A stretch of 28,775 nt of DNA from a virus: the IMG/VR virus record IMGVR_UViG_3300028025_004980, positions 1 to 28,775 of that record. One strand, written 5' to 3'. The translations under genes and the position numbers were made by a program. Below are positions 1 to 20,581 of this stretch, piece by piece (position 1 is the first letter of the stretch; each line of letters opens with the position of its first letter). Under the pieces are notes generated by a model. That model was not told the origin of the DNA. It saw only the letters and a program-made list of their open reading frames with translations, and ran no database searches.

Positions 1-172
1 CTCCGTCTGTATCCAACAGCTTTATGTTGGCTTATAATTGGCTACTTTATTATAACTCACATTTTTATTTGTGATTAATTAAGAACTAACATTGCTATCA
101 GGGTTTAAATGGTTCACAGATAAATCTGGAATCACCACCTACCGATTTTACGGTATCTTAGTTAATTCTTTG

Positions 173-258
173 CGGAGAGAGTAGGATTCGAACCCACGGA
201 CCTTTGACAGTCTCCTGATTTCAAGTCAGGTGCAATAGACCAACTCTACCATCTCTCC
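173..258 (-). tRNA. tRNA-Ser (UGA)
   Basis: On the minus strand the acceptor GGAGAGA pairs with TCTCTCC. The anticodon stem CCTGA/TCAGG encloses CTTGAAA, giving anticodon UGA. A long variable arm typical of Ser follows, then the T-loop GTTCGAATC. CCA is not encoded; the base after G73 is C, then A. It reads UCA codons, which are common in this AT-rich phage. Confidence 0.95.
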
Positions 259-362
259 GTATAGATTTTTTCTTTCACATTTAGCCCAATCACCAGTGAG
301 ACAATGATTGGATTTTCGATTGAGACCCATAATGGGTTTGAAAATCTATAAAACTCTTCGAG

Positions 363-436
363 CGGACTGTACGGGACTCGAACCCGTGAACTCCACCGTG
401 ACAGGGTGGCATGATAACCAACTTCACCAACAATCC
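363..436 (-). tRNA. tRNA-Asp (GUC)
   Basis: The acceptor GGATTGT/ACAGTCC pairs with one G-U. The anticodon stem CCACC/GGTGG encloses CTGTCAC, giving GUC. The T-arm ACGGG-TTCGAGT-CCCGT is intact. The sequence after G73 is CT, the only tRNA in this cluster not followed by CA. Confidence 0.95.
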
Positions 437-627
437 AAAATAACAGGTTTTTTGTACCCTTCCGTACATCATAACCAACATATTTCTACATTGGTGGTTA
501 CATTTTCTCATTGGGTTAATTACTCCCCGATTATAGTAACTCTACCCTCACCGCTTTGATATCTAGAATCAAGACAGCTGTTCGGGATTTATATACCGTG
601 GGGTTACACCACAGTCATCACCTGTTG
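437..627. other. Unassigned spacer inside the tRNA cluster
   Basis: This is the largest tRNA-free gap in the cluster, about 190 bases. I see no tRNA T-arm signature and no convincing ORF on either strand. Similar unexplained spacers lie at 1-172, 259-362 and 701-853, while the tRNAs from 854 onward are only 4-8 bases apart. These spacers could hold decayed tRNAs or small RNAs; nothing in them can be named. Confidence 0.4.
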
Positions 628-700
628 AGCCCAAAGTCAGACTCGAACTGACGACCTGCTGATTACAAATCAGCTGCTCTACCAACTGAGCTATTCGGGC
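628..700 (-). tRNA. tRNA-Thr (UGU)
   Basis: The acceptor GCCCGAA pairs with TTTGGGC, the D-stem is GCTC/GAGC, and the anticodon stem GCTGA/TCAGC encloses TTTGTAA (anticodon UGU). The T-arm is GTCAG-TTCGAGT-CTGAC. The discriminator is U and is followed by CA. Confidence 0.96.
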
Positions 701-853
701 TACTATGGAAAACGGAAGATGGGGGTGTGGACATCCATTTTTATGATTGGCGTTTCTTGCTATTGCTAGCCCCGTTAAATCCCAATCAACCATTGTTTTA
801 CAAATATATGAACAATACTTTAAATTACAAAATAATTGTCAAATATATTTTTG

Positions 854-921
854 TTGCGGGGTCAGGAGTCGAACCTGAGACACTCGGCTTATGAGACCGG
901 TGGGGAACCATCCTCCCCGCA
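854..921 (-). tRNA. tRNA-Met-like (CAU), short D-arm
   Basis: The acceptor TGCGGGG/CCCCGCA, the T-arm TCAGG-TTCGACT-CCTGA and the anticodon loop CTCATAA (CAU) are clear. The D-arm is only about 11 nt, against about 15-17 normally. U8 and the conserved GG of the D-loop are missing, and the anticodon stem has one mismatch. Total length is 68 nt. The anticodon fits elongator Met, or Ile2 if lysidine-modified; initiator identity is less likely because position 1-72 is a U-A pair. It may be functional with an unusual fold or may be decaying. Confidence 0.75.
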
Positions 922-926
922 ATATG

Positions 927-997
927 TTGTCCCTCAAGGATTCGAACCTCAGCTACGTGAGCCAAATTCACGTGTACTACCGCTATACTAAAGGACA
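927..997 (-). tRNA. tRNA-Gln (UUG)
   Basis: The acceptor TGTCCTT/AGGGACA begins with the U1-A72 pair seen in many Gln tRNAs. The anticodon stem CGTGA/TCACG encloses ATTTGGC, which gives UUG with U33 in place. The T-loop TTCGAAT is present. A73 is followed by CA. Confidence 0.93.
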
Positions 998-1002
998 ATA
1001 TG

Positions 1003-1082
1003 TACCCAAGGTCGGACTCGAACCGACACGTCTATCGACACGGTTTCTAAGACCGCCGTGTATACCATTCCACCACTCGGGT
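1003..1082 (-). tRNA. tRNA-Leu (UAG)
   Basis: The acceptor ACCCGAG pairs with CTTGGGT. The anticodon stem GCGGT/ACCGT encloses CTTAGAA (UAG). A long variable arm of about 12 nt marks a type II tRNA. The T-arm is GTCGG-TTCGAGT-CCGAC. A73 is followed by CA. Confidence 0.95.
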
Positions 1083-1091
1083 ATTATTGTG

Positions 1092-1163
1092 CACCCACGT
1101 AAGGACTCGAACCTTCATTCTCGGTTTTGGAGACCGACGTTCTACCAATTGAACTACATAGGT
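1092..1163 (-). tRNA. tRNA-Trp (CCA)
   Basis: The acceptor ACCTATG/CGTGGGT is followed by U8-A9 and the D-stem GTTC/GAAC. The anticodon stem TCGGT/ACCGA encloses CTCCAAA (CCA anticodon). G73 is the usual Trp discriminator and is followed by CA. The T-stem has one mismatch at its base. Confidence 0.94.
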
Positions 1164-1168
1164 GTTTG

Positions 1169-1240
1169 CGTTGATGATAGGACTCGAACCTATAGTCGTT
1201 CGGTTAACAGCCGAAAGCTTCACCATTAAGCTACATCAAC
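1169..1240 (-). tRNA. tRNA-Asn (GUU)
   Basis: The acceptor GTTGATG/CATCAAC is perfect. The D-stem is GCTT/AAGC. The anticodon stem TTCGG/CCGAA encloses CTGTTAA (GUU). The T-arm is ATAGG-TTCGAGT-CCTAT. G73 is followed by CA. Confidence 0.96.
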
Positions 1241-1244
1241 ATTG

Positions 1245-1321
1245 TAGAGTAGACAGGATTCGAACCTGTGAGTTCTCTTGGTCCCAAACCAAGCGGGGTA
1301 ACCTGACTCCCCAACTACTCT
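1245..1321 (-). tRNA. tRNA-Pro (UGG)
   Basis: The acceptor AGAGTAG/CTACTCT is perfect. The D-stem is GGGG/CCCC. The anticodon stem CTTGG/CCAAG encloses TTTGGGA (UGG). The T-arm is ACAGG-TTCGAAT-CCTGT. A73 is followed by CA. It is the first tRNA in the direction of transcription. Confidence 0.96.
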
Positions 1322-11805: not shown

Positions 11806-13224
11806 ATGAAAAAAATAATAATCTCTCTCCTAATATTATTTTTTTGTTTTGACTCTTTTTCACAAACATACACACAAACGTTTATTGATAAATGTAGTGG
11901 TGAAAAAAAAGTGGCAACGACAACCATTATAAATGGTAATGCCACAGTATCTTTTTATAATCAGGTAAGAACGTTTTCTCCTATGGAGGTACAGATGGGG
12001 GTCGTACAAACTTGGTTATTTACAACTAAGGCAACATACGAAGCATTAACTTGTCCGGTAATTAATAATCCAATAGTACAACAGGCGGTTACAAACGCGG
12101 CAGCTCAAACAGCATCTAACGCCGCAGCAACTGCGGCTAGTTCCGCAGCAAGTTCTGCGGCATCATCATCTGCAAGTTCTGCGGCAAGTAGTTCGGCAAG
12201 TTCAGCTGCCGCTAGTTCAGCATCATCGACACCACCAACAACAACCCCACCACCAACACAAAGTAGTTCACCACCACCTGCTAGTGGTTCATCTAGTAGT
12301 TCATCTAGTAGTTCATCTAGTAGTTCATCTGAAAGTAAGACCGAAACAAAAACGGAAACTAAATCAGAAACAAAGAGTGAATCTAAGTCAGAATCAAAAT
12401 CTGAAAGTAAGAGTGAAGAAAAGAAAGAAGAATCTAAATCGGAATCTAAAAAAGAAGAGAAGAAAGAAGAATCTAAAGAAGAGAAAAAAGAGGAATCTAA
12501 AGAAGAAAAAAAAGAAGAGAAAAAAGAGGAAAAGAAAAAGGAAGAAAAGAAAAAAGAAAAGGCGGCGGTAACAAATCCAATGTTATTGTCGTCAGATTTA
12601 TCCACAATAGAATCTCCCGATGGTAGATGGTTACAATCTGCAACTATCGGGGTTTCCAAATCATCGTTAATGGGTGACGAAAGTTATTCTGCCAATACTG
12701 TCATCATGAGTGATTTAAAAACATTTATTGTTAGTGGTGGATATACTAAAATGGATTTCTCAGAAGGTAAATTAAAGGCAATACATTCATATTCAACAGC
12801 ATTTGCATATTTGAATGGAAATTATATGAATTTATTAGGTTACACATGGATTAAACCAACACCAAAACATGGTGTATTTGGATATAATTTAGGATTAATA
12901 AATTTATTTCTTAAAAACGAAAAAGATAACTACGATTATAACATGTCATCGTCAGTTGTTGCTTTTTGGACTAAACCTTATCAGTATAGTAAAAAGTTAA
13001 CAGTTTCTCCACAAATATTTACAATGTTTGCTCCTTTATCTTGGAATACCGTTGCAGGTACATCCACGGTTAATCGACACATGGGATTCTTGTTAGGTAG
13101 TTCGTTTGATTACAAATTAAGTAAACGATTTGGGTTTAGTTTTAATTACAAACTTAGTGGGAACACTTCTCCCGGATCACCTTGGTTAAGTAACTTTTTA
13201 ATTGGGTCAAGAATGGTGCTTTAA
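11806..13224 (+). CDS. Secreted low-complexity/barrel protein
   Basis: This 472-aa protein has four parts. There is a signal peptide ending SFSQ, and a small Cys-containing domain (21-90). A long low-complexity linker follows: Ala/Ser-rich 97-141, Pro/Thr 142-160, poly-Ser 161-175, and Lys/Glu/Ser-rich 176-252. A C-terminal predicted outer-membrane barrel (about 260-472) is paralogous by eye to the protein at 6382-7275. The layout resembles an anchored surface protein with a charged stalk that could span the periplasm or project outward. It is the last gene of the plus-strand envelope module, and its 3' end overlaps a minus-strand small ORF by 18 nt. Confidence 0.65.
   Translation: MKKIIISLLILFFCFDSFSQTYTQTFIDKCSGEKKVATTTIINGNATVSFYNQVRTFSPMEVQMGVVQTWLFTTKATYEALTCPVINNPIVQQAVTNAAAQTASNAAATAASSAASSAASSSASSAASSSASSAAASSASSTPPTTTPPPTQSSSPPPASGSSSSSSSSSSSSSSESKTETKTETKSETKSESKSESKSESKSEEKKEESKSESKKEEKKEESKEEKKEESKEEKKEEKKEEKKKEEKKKEKAAVTNPMLLSSDLSTIESPDGRWLQSATIGVSKSSLMGDESYSANTVIMSDLKTFIVSGGYTKMDFSEGKLKAIHSYSTAFAYLNGNYMNLLGYTWIKPTPKHGVFGYNLGLINLFLKNEKDNYDYNMSSSVVAFWTKPYQYSKKLTVSPQIFTMFAPLSWNTVAGTSTVNRHMGFLLGSSFDYKLSKRFGFSFNYKLSGNTSPGSPWLSNFLIGSRMVL
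12097..12565 (+). repeat. Low-complexity coding repeats (Ala/Ser, Ser, Lys/Glu)
   Basis: Within the gene at 11806-13224, GCx/TCx/AGT codons build an Ala/Ser run. A tandem 12-mer (AGTTCATCTAGT and its shifts, about 12287-12330) follows, and then a purine-only GAA/AAA tract to about 12565. Long antisense frames across this stretch are shadows of the repeats. Such tracts often vary in length between close relatives through slippage. Confidence 0.85.
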
Positions 13225-13544: not shown

Positions 13545-13895
13545 TTAAATGGTAACTAAAATTTTATTATTAGTCAAGTCTTCGTATAAATTTTTTATTT
13601 CAGCACATTTTTCATAATCCTCAATACTCTCAAAAAAAGGAATAACATCACGAGATAAAACAATTGTTTCGTTTCTATTAAACTTAAATTCCGTATCCCA
13701 CTCTAACCCTTGGATAATAGCCTGAATATATAGGGATAGAACACGTTTTTTGGTTTCTTTAAACCCTTTAAAGACCTCAACAATGTTTTCATATATCGAT
13801 TGTTTATTAATGTCGTAAAAGTCATTAAAATCGGTATACTTACCTTTAATGTACATCGTTTTGTAGGGTGTTTTTGTTTTTGCTGTGTACGCCAT
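13545..13895 (-). CDS. Hypothetical protein (116 aa)
   Basis: This is a soluble, mostly helical-looking 116-aa protein. The N-terminal region is basic, and the middle has a helix (SIYENIVEVFKGFKETKKRV). There is no signal peptide, and no known motif was recognised. It follows the cREC gene by 51 nt but has its own TATTTATC element at 13920-13927, so it may be expressed separately from the RNA repair genes. Its role in RNA repair is only suggested by position. Confidence 0.7.
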   Translation of the reverse strand: MAYTAKTKTPYKTMYIKGKYTDFNDFYDINKQSIYENIVEVFKGFKETKKRVLSLYIQAIIQGLEWDTEFKFNRNETIVLSRDVIPFFESIEDYEKCAEIKNLYEDLTNNKILVTI

Positions 13896-13946: not shown

Positions 13947-14435
13947 TTATTTTTTGTTACTTCTGTCCCATTTTGCTTTTCTAGCTTCTGGTGATAATCT
14001 AAACTCTTCATCGATAGTATGTTCAAATGTAAATCTACGACATAATTCGGGAAGTCTACAATTTTTTAAATAATTGTTAATATATCCCATCATATTATGT
14101 GCACCGATTGGGTTCGCAGAATGAACATAAATTTGTGGTAAAGGTATGTTTTTTGTCATACTCTCACTAACTAAAAATTTACAACAATCGTATCCTGTTT
14201 TTTCATTAATAATATTTTCATAATTTATTTGGTAATTACTTTTTGCATTCGTATAGTATTCCTCCATTGCTTGATCACCCAAATCATGGTCTAACGATAT
14301 CAAATCAAAATTCTCCAATCCGTTTAATCTAATTATTGAAACAAATTGTTCATAATTTCTAACAACAATCCAATCATCACCTTTTGGTGTTCGTATATCA
14401 TCGAGATATAATCTCAATCTTTTATTAATTTTCAT
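13947..14435 (-). CDS. cREC (cyclic-phosphate processing receiver) protein
   Basis: This 162-aa protein shows the signature of the receiver-like cREC domain: LDDIR (11-15), SLDHDLG (47-53), TGYD (80-83) and VHSANPIGAHNM (104-115). The acidic triad and the HSANPxG motif match the family that comparative genomics linked to RNA repair and predicted to act on 2',3'-cyclic phosphates. It overlaps the RNA ligase gene by 11 nt, so the two are translated together. In T4, end healing of cleaved tRNA uses the phosphatase half of polynucleotide kinase. The kinase here lacks that half, and this protein is the natural candidate to replace it. Biochemistry for the family is scarce, so the activity is a prediction. 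Confidence 0.8.
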   Translation of the reverse strand: MKINKRLRLYLDDIRTPKGDDWIVVRNYEQFVSIIRLNGLENFDLISLDHDLGDQAMEEYYTNAKSNYQINYENIINEKTGYDCCKFLVSESMTKNIPLPQIYVHSANPIGAHNMMGYINNYLKNCRLPELCRRFTFEHTIDEEFRLSPEARKAKWDRSNKK

Positions 14436-15630
14436 CTTTCTTAAATGGTTTTGAATATTTTGGTTTAACTATTTTCCAAATTATGTCGTCAACTTTTTCA
14501 TTGTTCCCGTTCCACATTGCAAACATAATCGCATGTAAAACTTTTTGTTGTTTCATTACAAATTCGGCAAATTCTTTTTTGGATGGTTCAGGATATCTAT
14601 CATTAAATTTTCCATATCTAAAACCATCATGTAATTTACCTGCACGTTCTCTTAGTTGAAAACATGCGTATCTTAAATCTCGAACAGTTTCTTTAACCCA
14701 TTGATTAAATTCGTCAGGAACCTTTTCAAGTAATTCATCAAATGGTTTATTATCTTTCAAATATTCCCATATATCTCTATTGGATATGTTGGTTAATATT
14801 TTATGTAACCTAACGTACTCATCTCCTTTGATTTTCATACGAAAACCATTCTTGAATTTTATTACGTAACCTTCTTTATCTTTACTAATTTCTTCTTTTA
14901 GTAAATCATATCCCTCACCCCAAGTTTTATATGTTGTTACAATTTCAAATCCACAATCTTGTAACCAAAATAATGAACTGTCAGGGACTTCCTCACCACT
15001 ATCAGTATGAATGGCACCAAGTACCACTAATTTTTCTTCACCTTTGTAATCAACAACAATTCTATTTTCGGGATAAATAATTTCAAACAAATATGTATTG
15101 TCTTTTCTTATTGCACTAATATCGTGTCTATCAAGTATTTCTTTTCCTTTAATTGCTTGTGGTGATGTGAACGAACCTCGAGTTGCTAATATCCATTCAC
15201 CTTTTGTTTTTGGTGTTGGGTCATAATATGGATTATCGTAATCAGGTAAATTATTTGGGTCAAAGAAATTTTCCATACCTGTTTCATAATTGTTATTAAA
15301 CCATATGTTATATCTTCTCTCTTCACTTAATTCATATTCATAATAAAAGAGAATACCTAAAGAGCCATCCATTTTTTCATAGACAACATAATCTTCGTTT
15401 GGGATGTCTTCTGGTTTATGTTCTTCGTAGTTGAAGAATTTCTTAAATGGTCTTGCAACTATTTCACCTTTTGAATTAGTCACTAATCCACGACATTGTA
15501 AAGTAATTTCATCCCACAATCTTTCGTATTGAACTTTTGGGGAATAATTCCAAATAGTTAAATCAAGGTTTGGGTGTGTTTGTTTGTGTAACAAACCATT
15601 TTCGTAATATTTTTCTAATGTAGTTAGCAC
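14425..15630 (-). CDS. rnlA: RNA ligase, T4 Rnl1 (RnlA) type
   Basis: This 401-aa ATP-dependent RNA ligase carries the nucleotidyltransferase motifs in order. Motif I is EKMDGS, with catalytic Lys86. A YLFEIIYPENRIVVDY segment (180-195) corresponds to motifs III and IIIa. Motif IV is KEGYVIK (252-258) and motif V is MKIKGDEYVRLH (265-276). An N-terminal CRGLV...ARPFKKFFNYEE segment matches the T4 Rnl1 pattern. The start is GTG 15630; the frame closes at a TAA a dozen codons further up with no ATG. The gene lies inside a tight kinase-ligase-cREC set. The expected role is sealing of RNA cut in host defence, most likely tRNAs. Confidence 0.9.
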   Translation of the reverse strand: MLTTLEKYYENGLLHKQTHPNLDLTIWNYSPKVQYERLWDEITLQCRGLVTNSKGEIVARPFKKFFNYEEHKPEDIPNEDYVVYEKMDGSLGILFYYEYELSEERRYNIWFNNNYETGMENFFDPNNLPDYDNPYYDPTPKTKGEWILATRGSFTSPQAIKGKEILDRHDISAIRKDNTYLFEIIYPENRIVVDYKGEEKLVVLGAIHTDSGEEVPDSSLFWLQDCGFEIVTTYKTWGEGYDLLKEEISKDKEGYVIKFKNGFRMKIKGDEYVRLHKILTNISNRDIWEYLKDNKPFDELLEKVPDEFNQWVKETVRDLRYACFQLRERAGKLHDGFRYGKFNDRYPEPSKKEFAEFVMKQQKVLHAIMFAMWNGNNEKVDDIIWKIVKPKYSKPFKKDEN

Positions 15631-15697
15631 AATCTTTGATTGGTGTTTTTTGTGGTGGATTTACTGACTTAATAAAAGATTCAATAAATTGACTCAT
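15563..15697 (-). CDS. Overlapping small ORF (44 aa) between kinase and ligase
   Basis: The ATG at 15697 abuts the kinase stop (TAA-ATG) and opens a 44-codon frame that runs over the first 68 nt of the ligase in another frame. It may be a real tiny gene, or it may exist to carry ribosomes from the kinase to the weak GTG start of the ligase. The peptide (MSQFIESFIKSVNPP...) has no known motif. Confidence 0.35.
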   Translation of the reverse strand: MSQFIESFIKSVNPPQKTPIKDCANYIRKILRKWFVTQTNTPKP

Positions 15698-16126
15698 TTA
15701 CAATTTGATTTGAAACCTATCCTTCATTTGTTGAAGTTTATCTTTCGGTACTCCGTGAATATTTTCACCTCCGTGTCTGTTTTCAACAATCAGAGTGTGA
15801 ACTCTATAATTGTATCTTTCAGCCATTTTGAAATATTCATCCATTTCCCATTCTTGTGTAAATGTATTTGCAACAACAATTCTTGATTTTTGTTGTCTCA
15901 TTCTTTCCGAACATCTAAATTGGCAATAATTATGAGCCTCTTTTAATTTTGATGGGTCGAAGTTATATTCACCATCTTTAGTTTCAAAAAAATCATCGGC
16001 GGAAAGAATCTCAGGCTCAACGTTTGATGGTAGTTGTAATATAACATTCGCTAAAGTTGTTTTACCCGAACCAGGTAACCCTCTAAGAAGTATTAAATCA
16101 CCCTGTTTTTCAATGTTTGTATCCAT
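15698..16126 (-). CDS. P-loop polynucleotide kinase-like protein
   Basis: This 142-aa AAA_33/N4BP2-type kinase has the P-loop GLPGSGKT (16-23), the phosphoacceptor-site pattern SADDFF (42-47), EYNFD with LKEAH (54-65), VVANTFT (84-90) and the C-terminal lid NIHGVPKDKLQQM (122-134). The size matches only the kinase half of T4 Pnk (301 aa); the 3'-phosphatase half is absent. The likely reaction is 5'-OH phosphorylation of RNA ends before ligation. It is the first gene of the RNA repair set, read toward ligase and cREC. Other P-loop kinases of this family act on different small substrates, so the RNA substrate is inferred from context. Confidence 0.85.
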   Translation of the reverse strand: MDTNIEKQGDLILLRGLPGSGKTTLANVILQLPSNVEPEILSADDFFETKDGEYNFDPSKLKEAHNYCQFRCSERMRQQKSRIVVANTFTQEWEMDEYFKMAERYNYRVHTLIVENRHGGENIHGVPKDKLQQMKDRFQIKL

Positions 16127-16544: not shown

Positions 16545-18563
16545 TTATAACATTTTTTTCACGATTGTTAATTTTTCGTTTTTATATTTTAAAATAATAG
16601 GTACATCTGCAACAATATTACCCTTTAGAATTTCCTCACTTAAGAAATCTTCACATAAATTTTGAATAATACGTTTCAAGGGTCTTGCACCATATTCCTC
16701 TTGGGTGTTTAACTCAAAAATTTTATCAATAACGGTCTTATCAAACGTAACGATGTAATTTTTATCCACTAAACGAGAATTTAATTTACCAATTTCAATA
16801 TCAATAATTTTCTTTAGTGTTTCTTCATTTAATGAATTAAACAACACAATATCATCGATACGATTCAAAAATTCGGGATTGAAGTGTTGCTTTAATGATT
16901 TCTGAATCATGGTTTTCTTCACTTCATATTTTTGCGTTTCACTTGATGAAGTGCTGAAACCAACACCTCCACCAAATTCGGACACTTTTTTAGCCCCTAC
17001 GTTTGAGGTCATGATAATAAGACAATTAGTGAAATTAACTTTTCGTCCGAAAGAGTCCGTTAAATGACCCTCATCTAAAATTTGTAATAATAGATTAAAG
17101 ACATCTTTATGTGCCTTTTCAATCTCATCGAATAAGATTACTGAGAATGGATTATTCTTAACCTTTTCGGTTAGTTGACCACCTTCATCATATCCAACAT
17201 AACCTGGAGGAGAACCAATTAATTTAGATACGTTGTGTCTATCCATAAACTCACTCATATCGACACGAATGATTTTATCAGGATCACCAAACAATAAATT
17301 AGCAAGAGATTTAGCTAAATGGGTTTTACCTACACCCGTTGAACCTAAGAAAATAAATGAACCAATTGGTTTATTGGCATCTTTAATTCCCACACGATTA
17401 CGTCTAATTGCTTTTGAGATGGTTAATATTGCTTCATCTTGACCAATGACCTTTTCAGATAATAAGGTTTCCATCTTTAATAACTTTTTAGTTTCGTCAG
17501 AATCTAATTTAGTAATCGGCACTCCCGTCATTTCAGACACAATAGTGTAAACATCGTCAATTGAAACAGGAATTTTATTATCCTTTTGTTTTTCCATCCA
17601 CTTAGACTTCTCCGCCTCAAGTTTATCTAAAATTTTTCTTTCTTCATCTCTAAGTTTTGCCGCTTGTTCGTAATTCTGATTTTTTACAACAAGAATCTTT
17701 TTTTCCTTAATTTCATCCGCCTGACCTTTTAATTTTTCAATTGTATCAGGTGCACGTAATGAAATTCTTTTTTCAGACCCTAACTCATCAATAACATCAA
17801 TTGCCTTATCGGGAAATTGTCTATCGGTAATGTAACGACCCGCCAATTTAACAATTGTATCAATCACACCATCTTCATATTGAACTTTATGGAAATTCTC
17901 ATATGAATCTTTTAGATTTTTCAAAATCTCAACAGTTTCAGATTGAGTTGGTTCCTTTAAAATTACTTTTTGAAATCTTCTTACTAAAGCAGAATCCTTT
18001 TCAATGTGTTTTTTGAATTCATCGAACGTAGTTGCACCAATACATTGGATTTCTCCCCTAGCTAATGCGGGTTTCATAATATTTGCAGCATCCATGGCTC
18101 CACTTGCATTTCCTGCACCAACCATCGTATGTAACTCATCAATGAATACAATAACATTAGGTGCCTCTTGTAGTTCATTTAAGATTGCTTTAATCCTCTC
18201 TTCAAATTGTCCTCGATATTTTGTTCCCGCAACTAAAGATGTCAAATCTAATGAGACAATTCTTTTGTCTAATAAATTTGTGGGACAATCACCTTTAACA
18301 ATCATTAATGCAAGTTTTTCAACTAATGCCGATTTACCAACACCAGCCTCTCCAACAACAACCGCATTGTTTTTCTTTTTACGAGAAAGAATTTGAGCAA
18401 TTCTTCTCACTTCTTTATCTCTCCCAACTACTGGGTCAATCTTACCTTCTTCCGCAAGTTTAATTAAATCGCGAGAAAAATTATCTAAGATTGGAGTGGT
18501 TGAACCTTTACGTCCTCTTTTAGGGTTTGTCGTTGGTCCGTCTTCAAAAAAATCTACTGCCAT
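16545..18563 (-). CDS. ClpC/ClpA-like AAA+ unfoldase lacking the N-domain
   Basis: This 672-aa protein (counted from ATG 18563) has two AAA+ modules. D1 carries Walker A GEAGVGKS (71-78) and Walker B VIVFIDEL (137-144). D2 carries Walker A GSTGVGKT (407-414) and Walker B VILFDEIE (475-482). Between them lies a short UVR/M-like helical insert (about 295-322). The Clp N-domain repeats are absent; the chain starts with an acidic and basic tail and then the D1 linker. A VGF tripeptide (534-536) sits where ClpC carries its ClpP-docking loop, so pairing with host ClpP is plausible. The frame opens further up to ATG 18617, but ATG 18563 has an A-rich leader and gives a natural start. The gene diverges from Hsp20. 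Confidence 0.9.
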   Translation of the reverse strand: MAVDFFEDGPTTNPKRGRKGSTTPILDNFSRDLIKLAEEGKIDPVVGRDKEVRRIAQILSRKKKNNAVVVGEAGVGKSALVEKLALMIVKGDCPTNLLDKRIVSLDLTSLVAGTKYRGQFEERIKAILNELQEAPNVIVFIDELHTMVGAGNASGAMDAANIMKPALARGEIQCIGATTFDEFKKHIEKDSALVRRFQKVILKEPTQSETVEILKNLKDSYENFHKVQYEDGVIDTIVKLAGRYITDRQFPDKAIDVIDELGSEKRISLRAPDTIEKLKGQADEIKEKKILVVKNQNYEQAAKLRDEERKILDKLEAEKSKWMEKQKDNKIPVSIDDVYTIVSEMTGVPITKLDSDETKKLLKMETLLSEKVIGQDEAILTISKAIRRNRVGIKDANKPIGSFIFLGSTGVGKTHLAKSLANLLFGDPDKIIRVDMSEFMDRHNVSKLIGSPPGYVGYDEGGQLTEKVKNNPFSVILFDEIEKAHKDVFNLLLQILDEGHLTDSFGRKVNFTNCLIIMTSNVGAKKVSEFGGGVGFSTSSSETQKYEVKKTMIQKSLKQHFNPEFLNRIDDIVLFNSLNEETLKKIIDIEIGKLNSRLVDKNYIVTFDKTVIDKIFELNTQEEYGARPLKRIIQNLCEDFLSEEILKGNIVADVPIILKYKNEKLTIVKKML

Positions 18564-18621
18564 ACTATTTTTACGTTTAGTTTCTACAAACATAACACAT
18601 TTCATTCTAAAAAACAAATAA

Positions 18622-18735: not shown

Positions 18736-19104
18736 ATGATTACATTATTCAAAGACCCGTTTTTTAACACTTTAGACAAAGTGTTTGATGAAGCCTACTT
18801 GAAGGTGGATAACAGAATTAATTCTAACATTACCACAACAGAAGATGGTTATAAGGTCCTATTATCGGTACCGGGACTTTCTAAAGATGATGTTAAAATA
18901 TCATTAAAGGAAAGTAAATTAACCATATCGTATGAAAAGGAGAGTGATGAATTCACATTTACTAATTCATTTAAGAAATCATATAATGTACCTGACGATG
19001 TTGATGAGAAAAATATCACGGGTAGTGTGGAAAATGGAGTGATTGAAATTATTCTACCTAAAAGTAAAAAGAAGTCGGTTGAGAGGTTAATTTCACTTAA
19101 CTAA
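18736..19104 (+). CDS. Hsp20 small heat-shock protein
   Basis: This 122-aa protein has a short N-terminus and an alpha-crystallin domain (about 28-110) with DGYKVLLSVPGLSKDDVKIS and the closing strand motif NGVIEIILPK (100-109). A short C-terminal tail lacks a clear I-x-I anchor, unlike many oligomeric family members. Hsp20 genes are regular in T4-like cyanophages and relatives, where they are thought to assist capsid scaffolding or protein folding. It is divergent from the Clp-like gene and closed by a terminator. Confidence 0.9.
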   Translation: MITLFKDPFFNTLDKVFDEAYLKVDNRINSNITTTEDGYKVLLSVPGLSKDDVKISLKESKLTISYEKESDEFTFTNSFKKSYNVPDDVDEKNITGSVENGVIEIILPKSKKKSVERLISLN

Positions 19105-19556: not shown

Positions 19557-19802
19557 ATGGGAATTATATCAGAAACAATTAATGGAAAAGTAATTGATGT
19601 TGTAATCAATTCATCTAACTTAAAAACCGCATCTTTCAATACTGAAACGGAGGATTTAACCGTAACTTTCAATAATGGTGCTATTTATGAGTATAATAAA
19701 GTTCCTTGGAATAAGTTCACTAAGTTTAGACTTGCTGAATCACAAGGAAAATACTTCAACGAGAATATCGCCAGAAGTCATAAGTACACAAAAAAAGGAT
19801 GA
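19557..19802 (+). CDS. KTSC-domain protein (81 aa)
   Basis: The pattern SSNLKTASFNTETEDLTVTF, then NGAIYEYNKVP, then ESQGKYFNENIARSHKY matches the KTSC domain, a small beta-strand and helix module named for a shared motif. KTSC is found alone or fused to lysyl-tRNA synthetases and is common in phages, with no firm biochemical role. The stop overlaps the next start (ATGA), tying it to the nucleotidyltransferase gene. Confidence 0.85.
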   Translation: MGIISETINGKVIDVVINSSNLKTASFNTETEDLTVTFNNGAIYEYNKVPWNKFTKFRLAESQGKYFNENIARSHKYTKKG

Positions 19803-20581
19803 GTTTATTTGAAGAATTAATCGAAGATAGGGGCGAAGACGAAAAAATCGTAGGTTCTTTCAAACCTAAGGATTCACTATCGGATCAAATATTCGAAGTA
19901 TCTGATGATGATTTTTTAATGCGTGAGGATATCAGAAAGGGTATACTTGAAATTACAAATCAATATCTTGACTTTATTGATGTCGATTTTTTTGTTCACG
20001 ATATATTATTTACAGGTTCTTTAGCAAATTACAATTGGTCGGAGTATTCTGATGTGGATATTCACATTTTAATAGACATGAGTGAATTTGATGAGGGTGG
20101 CAATAAGGATTCAAATGTAGTACATAAAATAGTAACAGATTTCTTCGATGCAAAAGAAAAAGTTTGGAAAACAAAACATGACATTAAAATAAAAGGTTTT
20201 GAAGTTGAGTTGTACGTACAAGATATTAATCAAGAACACATATCATCAGGGGTTTATTCTGTGTTAAATAATGAATGGGTTGTTACTCCCGAAAAAACTA
20301 ATCCTAAAATTGATGATGACAAAATATTACAAAAGGGCGAGGAATATGCAAAAAAAATAGATGATTTGGTATCCGATTTTAAATCAAATAAGGATATAAC
20401 AAATGAAACTAAGGACTTATATAAAAAAATTAAAACATTCAGACAAAGTGGTCTTGAATCAGGGGGAGAGTACTCATATGAGAATCTAACCTTCAAATTA
20501 CTTCGTAGAAATGGATATATAGAAAAATTATTAAAACTAAAAACGGACATTTTAAATAAAAAATTGTCCATAACACAATAA
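19799..20581 (+). CDS. Predicted nucleotidyltransferase (Pol-beta fold)
   Basis: This 260-aa protein contains FTGSLANYNWSEYSDVDIHI: the GS (73-74) and D-x-D (85, 87) signature of minimal nucleotidyltransferases. A third acidic strand, GFEVELYVQD, follows at about 133-142. Long charged helices make up the N-terminus and the C-terminal 80 residues. Family members transfer NMP to RNA, proteins or small molecules, including toxin/antitoxin MNT-type enzymes. The gene is coupled to KTSC and sits upstream of capsid and packaging genes, so it is probably a late protein. The substrate is unknown. Confidence 0.8.
   Translation: MSLFEELIEDRGEDEKIVGSFKPKDSLSDQIFEVSDDDFLMREDIRKGILEITNQYLDFIDVDFFVHDILFTGSLANYNWSEYSDVDIHILIDMSEFDEGGNKDSNVVHKIVTDFFDAKEKVWKTKHDIKIKGFEVELYVQDINQEHISSGVYSVLNNEWVVTPEKTNPKIDDDKILQKGEEYAKKIDDLVSDFKSNKDITNETKDLYKKIKTFRQSGLESGGEYSYENLTFKLLRRNGYIEKLLKLKTDILNKKLSITQ

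Follow-up and report, generated by a model that had tools for sequence, protein, structure and literature searches.

A stand-alone kinase, Rnl1-type ligase and cREC gene set in a viral contig, related to the predicted RNA-repair locus of phage V5

The kinase, ligase and cREC genes and their surroundings

The window analysed here is the entire 28,775-bp record of the virus contig IMGVR_UViG_3300028025_004980, and it is a genome fragment, since colinear relatives run on beyond it. It holds portal and terminase genes and, at positions 13947-16126, three real and co-oriented ORFs that form a single operon on the minus strand. These encode a predicted stand-alone 5'-OH polynucleotide kinase comprising the kinase half only (15698..16126, 142 aa), an Rnl1-type (T4 RnlA-like) ATP-dependent RNA ligase (14425..15630, 401 aa) and a cREC ("cyclic-phosphate processing receiver") protein (13947..14435, 162 aa). 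Both the gene identities and the operon structure had been proposed in a sequence-only reading of the window, and they are confirmed by the profile families and by the common orientation of the ORFs. Two smaller ORFs on the same strand accompany the operon. One of them, of 44 aa (15563..15697), begins with MSQFIES, an N-terminus also present in L001:9756-10001; it is probably the remnant of an ORF of ~80 aa that sits between kinase and ligase in ~39 relatives. The other, of 116 aa (13545..13895), is syntenic in most loci, where it is conserved directly 3' of cREC or, in loci without cREC, of the ligase, and family searches with it gave no informative match.

Further along the minus strand there is a cluster of tRNA genes (172..1321), which the sequence-only reading counted as nine and placed near the repair genes. 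Both ARAGORN and Rfam (RF00005) find eight (Ser, Asp, Thr, Gln, Leu, Trp, Asn and Pro), and the cluster is 12.6-14 kb away from the operon, with plus-strand genes between them. Close relatives also carry a tmRNA with the tag ATSNVEVA* (L119:7723-8129, which is 47723-48129 of record G018, and likewise L121, L122 and L123), located near the tRNA cluster and an MPPED2-like gene, ~6 kb past the window's left edge. The operon is adjoined by a gene for a ClpA/ClpB-like AAA+ protein (phrog_4871; 16545-18617, minus strand), kept at this place in most relatives, and by a small heat-shock protein gene (Hsp20, phrog_432; 18736-19104, plus strand) divergent to it. A predicted Pol-beta-type nucleotidyltransferase follows on the plus strand (19799-20581), with the motif GS...SDVDIHILID and a weak NTP_transf_2 match; more than 100 related loci show its gene in synteny with the repair operon, and the protein could be an RNA-end nucleotidyltransferase, and no match to RlaP was obtained. 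The plus-strand ORF at 11806-13224 encodes a protein with a signal-like N-terminus followed by a long low-complexity stretch, first of Ser/Ala and then of Glu/Lys/Ser. Upstream of the kinase in L022-L025, L050, L052, L053, L055 and L075 there is a gene for an SPFH/Band-7 (prohibitin-like) protein (Band_7, 5.8e-22). A role as RNA-repair scaffolds has been proposed for SPFH proteins.

The kinase matched AAA_33 (6.2e-16), phrog_2071 (1e-39) and the polynucleotide kinase family phrog_505 (8e-8), while an NCBIfam search gave nothing informative. The best structural match of its AF2 model (pLDDT 79.9) was T4 Pnk (1ly1), with a Z of 12.9 over 133 residues, and Foldseek gave Cth and T4 Pnk as top matches. 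The P-loop, N87/T88 and V126 of the kinase family are invariant or conservatively replaced, and R117, which corresponds to T4 R122, is present in 24/25 sequences. The catalytic residues of T4 Pnk are K15, S16, D35, R38, D85 and R126. When both proteins were aligned with MAFFT, K15 and S16 were matched, D85 was replaced by Asn, and R122 was matched but R126 was not; the alignment did not put T4 D35 onto the invariant D44 of the kinase, its expected counterpart, and gave no assignment for D35 and R38. As the sequence-only reading had noted, the C-terminal 3'-phosphatase domain is absent, the protein ending at residue 142, after the kinase fold, and the uncut homologues in related loci are all of ~127-183 aa. 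A recently truncated Pnkp was considered and rejected, since V5, Pseudomonas phages and others too carry members of the stand-alone kinase family (phrog_2071).

The ligase matched phrog_562 (3.4e-70), Pfam RNA_lig_T4_1 (9e-16) and, in the PDB, T4 Rnl1 (8e-11), and its nucleotidyl-transferase motifs I (KxDG), III, IV and V are all present. Ten residues of T4 Rnl1 (R54, K75, K99, D101, G102, S103, E159, G228, K240 and K242) are identical in 59/59 ligase homologues, and K119 is replaced by Arg in all 59. Against TIGR02308 ("T4 RnlA family RNA ligase") the protein scored 70 bits (E 2e-19), below the equivalog cut-off of 242 bits, which on sequence grounds makes it a divergent Rnl1-type relative and not a T4 RnlA equivalog. 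Given the T4-derived name of PHROG 562 ("RNA ligase and tail fiber protein attachment catalyst") and the presence of the portal and terminase genes in the window, the homologue might act mainly in virion assembly, attaching tail fibres like T4 gp63, with its linkage to kinase and cREC being incidental. We consider this highly improbable: all 59 homologues keep the key nucleotidyl-transfer residues unchanged and the 5' kinase is constantly linked, neither of which would seem to be needed for a purely structural role. In four loci (L165, L168, L169 and L170) the ligase gene is interrupted by an insertion of ~1.1 kb, which may be an intein or an intron that was not recognised; no known intron was found by Rfam at the gathering threshold in those of L165, L168 and L169.

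The cREC protein matched PF20274 (cREC_REC) at 3e-24 and 85.9 bits, the gathering score being 27. With its AF2 model (pLDDT 90.7), a search by Foldseek alone brought up nothing below 1e-3, and the assignment to the receiver-domain fold rests on a second look with VIA-align (Z 10.6) together with the Pfam match. The invariant residues D12, D13, D49, H50, D51, H105, S106 and N108 fit the described aspartate site. We found no paper in the literature that assays any cREC, cyclic-phosphate hydrolysis being a prediction, and here too we infer the function of the protein.

Linkage of the three genes in related viruses

A ligase-anchored scan of viral contigs yielded 80 loci, 57 of which contain ligase and cREC, nearly all of them with the kinase too, so the co-occurrence that the sequence-only reading had suggested looking for in other phages does exist. 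The start of cREC overlaps the end of the ligase gene by 11 bp in the window, an overlap that had also been pointed out beforehand and that recurs with the same length in 32 of the 57 loci; in a further 11 the two genes share 8 or 14 bp. Genes are inserted exactly between ligase and cREC in L027, L051, L047, L060 and L066, the insert being a GIY-YIG-type endonuclease, by motif, in L027 and L051 and other ORFs elsewhere.

The kinase is present at every ligase-anchored locus whose contig extends far enough upstream and, conversely, Rnl1 is found alongside the kinase in 71/77 kinase-anchored loci. In three loci (L360, L367 and L371) cREC lies directly 3' of the kinase with no Rnl1 seen. Around 20 uncut kinase-ligase loci, about a quarter, have no cREC, and none was found elsewhere in the whole records of these operons either, which are of up to 251 kb. 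In the tree of the ligase, built on 59 distinct sequences, the cREC state changes 9 times, and at least 7 of these changes are forced by supported branches. Since the pair is kept without cREC, and cREC was gained or lost repeatedly on the ligase tree, the core of the system is kinase plus ligase, and cREC is an optional accessory. A bacterial source of the gene triple was tried and rejected, as cREC loci in 80 genomes had no linked kinase, ligase or MPPED within 6 kb by profile searches, except for one weak kinase match.

Relation to phage V5 and other known systems

The gene set is not new: E. coli phage V5 has it, and an RNA-repair role has been predicted for it (PMC7824862, PMC9503650). 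The first of these papers named cREC, saw its operonic linkage to phage RNA ligases and predicted that it processes cyclic phosphates, proposing that a separate linear phosphatase acts after it, and the second described the V5/Mydo neighbourhood as composed of a sirtuin, a T4-like ligase, cREC, a nucleotide kinase and sometimes a calcineurin-like phosphoesterase. The locus of Escherichia phage V5 (rV5; DQ832317, 65706-68831) comprises ORF80 to ORF84, encoding a metallophosphoesterase, the kinase, the Rnl1 ligase, cREC and Sir2, respectively. Its ORF81 kinase, of 136 aa, matches the window kinase family profile at 2.9e-44, ORF83 (PF20274, 9e-14) overlaps the ORF82 ligase gene, and six tRNAs are near, at ~4 kb from the locus. 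However, in V5 kinase and ligase are encoded on opposite strands, whereas the three genes of the window are co-oriented, and V5 has the metallophosphoesterase and the sirtuin adjacent, whereas in the window's family the metallophosphoesterase is usually distant and a sirtuin was not found. In fact, no SIR2 was detected in 22 related records, and the proteins of the operon have no SIR2 match. The window therefore contains the Rnl1-type ligase, the cREC and the nucleotide kinase of the V5-type neighbourhood as defined in PMC9503650 and lacks its sirtuin, for which reason we file it, with its co-oriented genes, as a relative of the V5 type and not as a full member.

With the T4 Pnk (PseT)/RnlA system the window would share both chemistries, given a 5' kinase with the Pnk fold (Z 12.9) and an Rnl1 ligase with identical key residues. 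In T4, however, kinase, 3'-phosphatase and cyclic phosphodiesterase are annotated in one protein of 301 aa, PseT, while in the window the kinase stands alone and cREC is present, and an RNA-type PNK3P phosphatase was not found in the relatives. Pseudomonas phage Pyxpy02 (KIL-like) has a stand-alone kinase of the same family ("putative polynucleotide kinase"), an RNA ligase and, close by, a calcineurin-like phosphoesterase but, in contrast to the window, no cREC was detected in the 8.4-kb stretch of it that was examined. The closest named cREC, with 52% identity, is that of Flavobacterium phage immuto 3-5A, where it lies beside four tRNAs and has MPPED-like and V5-type metallophosphoesterases within 4 kb; this complete genome differs in that no Rnl1, Rnl2, RtcB or window-type kinase was detected in it.

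Clearing of the 3' end and the proposed role of the gene set

In order to be sealed by an Rnl1-type ligase, RNA ends with a 2',3'-cyclic phosphate would have to be converted to 3'-OH, and the relatives of the window point to a metallophosphoesterase encoded at a distance. The closest long relatives, L004 (record G018) and L006 (record G014), with a ligase identity of 94% each, have a 250-aa MPPED2-like metallophosphoesterase (6e-54 against MPPED2) 19 kb downstream of the ligase. G018 is colinear with the whole window, and its MPPED2-like gene is ~4 kb past the site matching the window's left edge. All 10 syntenic contigs that reach as far as the +19-24 kb position have the gene, as counted from coordinates. 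In L050, L052, L053 and L055 the ligase is flanked by cREC on one side and, on the other, by a different metallophosphoesterase, from the V5 ORF80 family, whose gene stops where the ligase begins; a 335-kb relative encodes a V5-type metallophosphoesterase and a HAD_SAK_2 phosphatase, both away from the operon, and L046, which has no cREC, encodes a HAD_SAK_2 protein upstream of the kinase. The phosphatase of the window's phage most likely lies just outside the fragment, to judge from these gene orders. Other suppliers of the 3' step were sought and rejected: there is no 2H phosphoesterase or KptA/Tpt1 in 21 related records and no RtcB in 19 records, and the sole PNK3P match, in G007, is a 114-aa HAD protein ~20 kb away which by eye resembles a capsule-type HAD more than an RNA phosphatase.

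These data bear on the possibility that cREC alone handles all the 3'-end processing, kinase, ligase and cREC thus being a complete three-enzyme replacement of T4 Pnk/RnlA. The overlap of cREC with the ligase gene in most relatives, the cyclic-phosphate processing predicted by both the Pfam name and PMC7824862, and the fact that most kinase-ligase-cREC loci have no adjacent phosphatase all speak in its favour. We nonetheless regard it as improbable, because cREC is missing from about a quarter of the kinase-ligase loci, and from their whole records, with the repeated changes of state described above, because the relatives encode metallophosphoesterases wherever enough sequence exists, and because PMC7824862 itself places a separate linear phosphatase after cREC. 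The sequence-only reading had described the set as a self-contained three-part alternative to T4 Pnk/RnlA, a view that finds no support, given that kinase and ligase persist without cREC in ~20 loci and that the relatives encode separate metallophosphoesterases. Of its argument, the lack of a phosphatase half in the kinase stands; the observation that it had named as refuting, a separate phosphatase encoded elsewhere in the genome, is made in the relatives, and for the window's own phage the corresponding place is beyond the reach of the fragment.

Most loci recovered in a cREC-anchored scan are of the kinase-ligase-cREC type. Furthermore, in nine contigs, not all independent, cREC and an MPPED2-like gene are direct neighbours, spaced by -14 to +4 bp, and among them Rnl1 was detected only in the record of L192. 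This coupling fits cyclic-phosphate chemistry. cREC is also encoded by Flavobacterium phage immuto and Cellulophaga phage phi17:2, in whose complete genomes Rnl1, Rnl2, RtcB and this kinase were not detected. Since cREC occurs in complete genomes without a detected RNA ligase, and is coupled to MPPED without Rnl1, its function should be broader than ligation. It is possible, if somewhat doubtful, that cREC and the MPPED2-like enzyme are a mobile two-enzyme module which clears 2',3'-cyclic phosphate ends, or cyclic-phosphate signals, and docks on varied repair or counter-defence islands, be it with Rnl1 and kinase, with the kinase alone or with no ligase.

The same observations could also be read as cREC, often with MPPED, degrading small molecules with a cyclic phosphate (2',3'-cNMP, ADP-ribose 1'',2''-cyclic phosphate or immune second messengers) and not serving ligation at all, its position next to the ligase reflecting a shared "counter-damage" island. 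Beyond the near absence of detected Rnl1 from the cREC-MPPED contigs and the phage genomes that have cREC and no detected RNA ligase, this agrees with the role in ADPr>P and cyclic-nucleotide metabolism proposed in PMC7824862 and PMC9503650, and with the preference of MPPED enzymes for 2',3'-cAMP (PMC10547211). We find it rather unlikely, as the tight and conserved ligase-cREC overlap and the kinase-cREC adjacency argue for RNA repair in the window's clade, and no KptA, 2H or sirtuin, which would make or use ADPr>P, was found in the relatives.

What is directly observed is that the genes of the cassette are present, homologous and conserved in order, and that the ligase retains its key residues for nucleotidyl transfer. 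Homology and context lend good support to a general RNA-repair role of the set, and the three genes very likely help to mend RNA cut by host defences; that the repair is directed against host anticodon nucleases is plausible by analogy with T4. We consider it probable that the window's set is a V5-like cassette that heals and seals RNA ends and in which the 3' end would be cleared in trans by a metallophosphoesterase and cREC. Judging from their families, the kinase would act on RNA that metal-independent RNases (host anticodon nucleases, for example) have cleaved, phosphorylating its 5'-OH ends, and joining 5'-P to 3'-OH would be the task of the Rnl1 ligase. The conversion of 2',3'-cyclic phosphate to 3'-OH would be shared by, or alternate between, cREC, as an optional accessory, and a metallophosphoesterase encoded elsewhere, either MPPED2-like or of the V5 ORF80 type, the likeliest division being ring opening by one enzyme and removal of the monophosphate thus formed by the other. 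Phosphomonoesterase activity was undetectable in a fly MPPED orthologue (PMC10547211), suggesting that MPPED alone probably would not complete the 3' end.

The gene set of the window leaves the known picture of phage RNA repair unchanged. It is, moreover, a ready test bed for cREC, a family predicted to process RNA 2',3'-cyclic phosphates: because some relatives have cREC and others lack it within an unchanged gene order, its function can be tested directly, and the coupling of MPPED and cREC suggests a second enzyme to be included in cREC assays.
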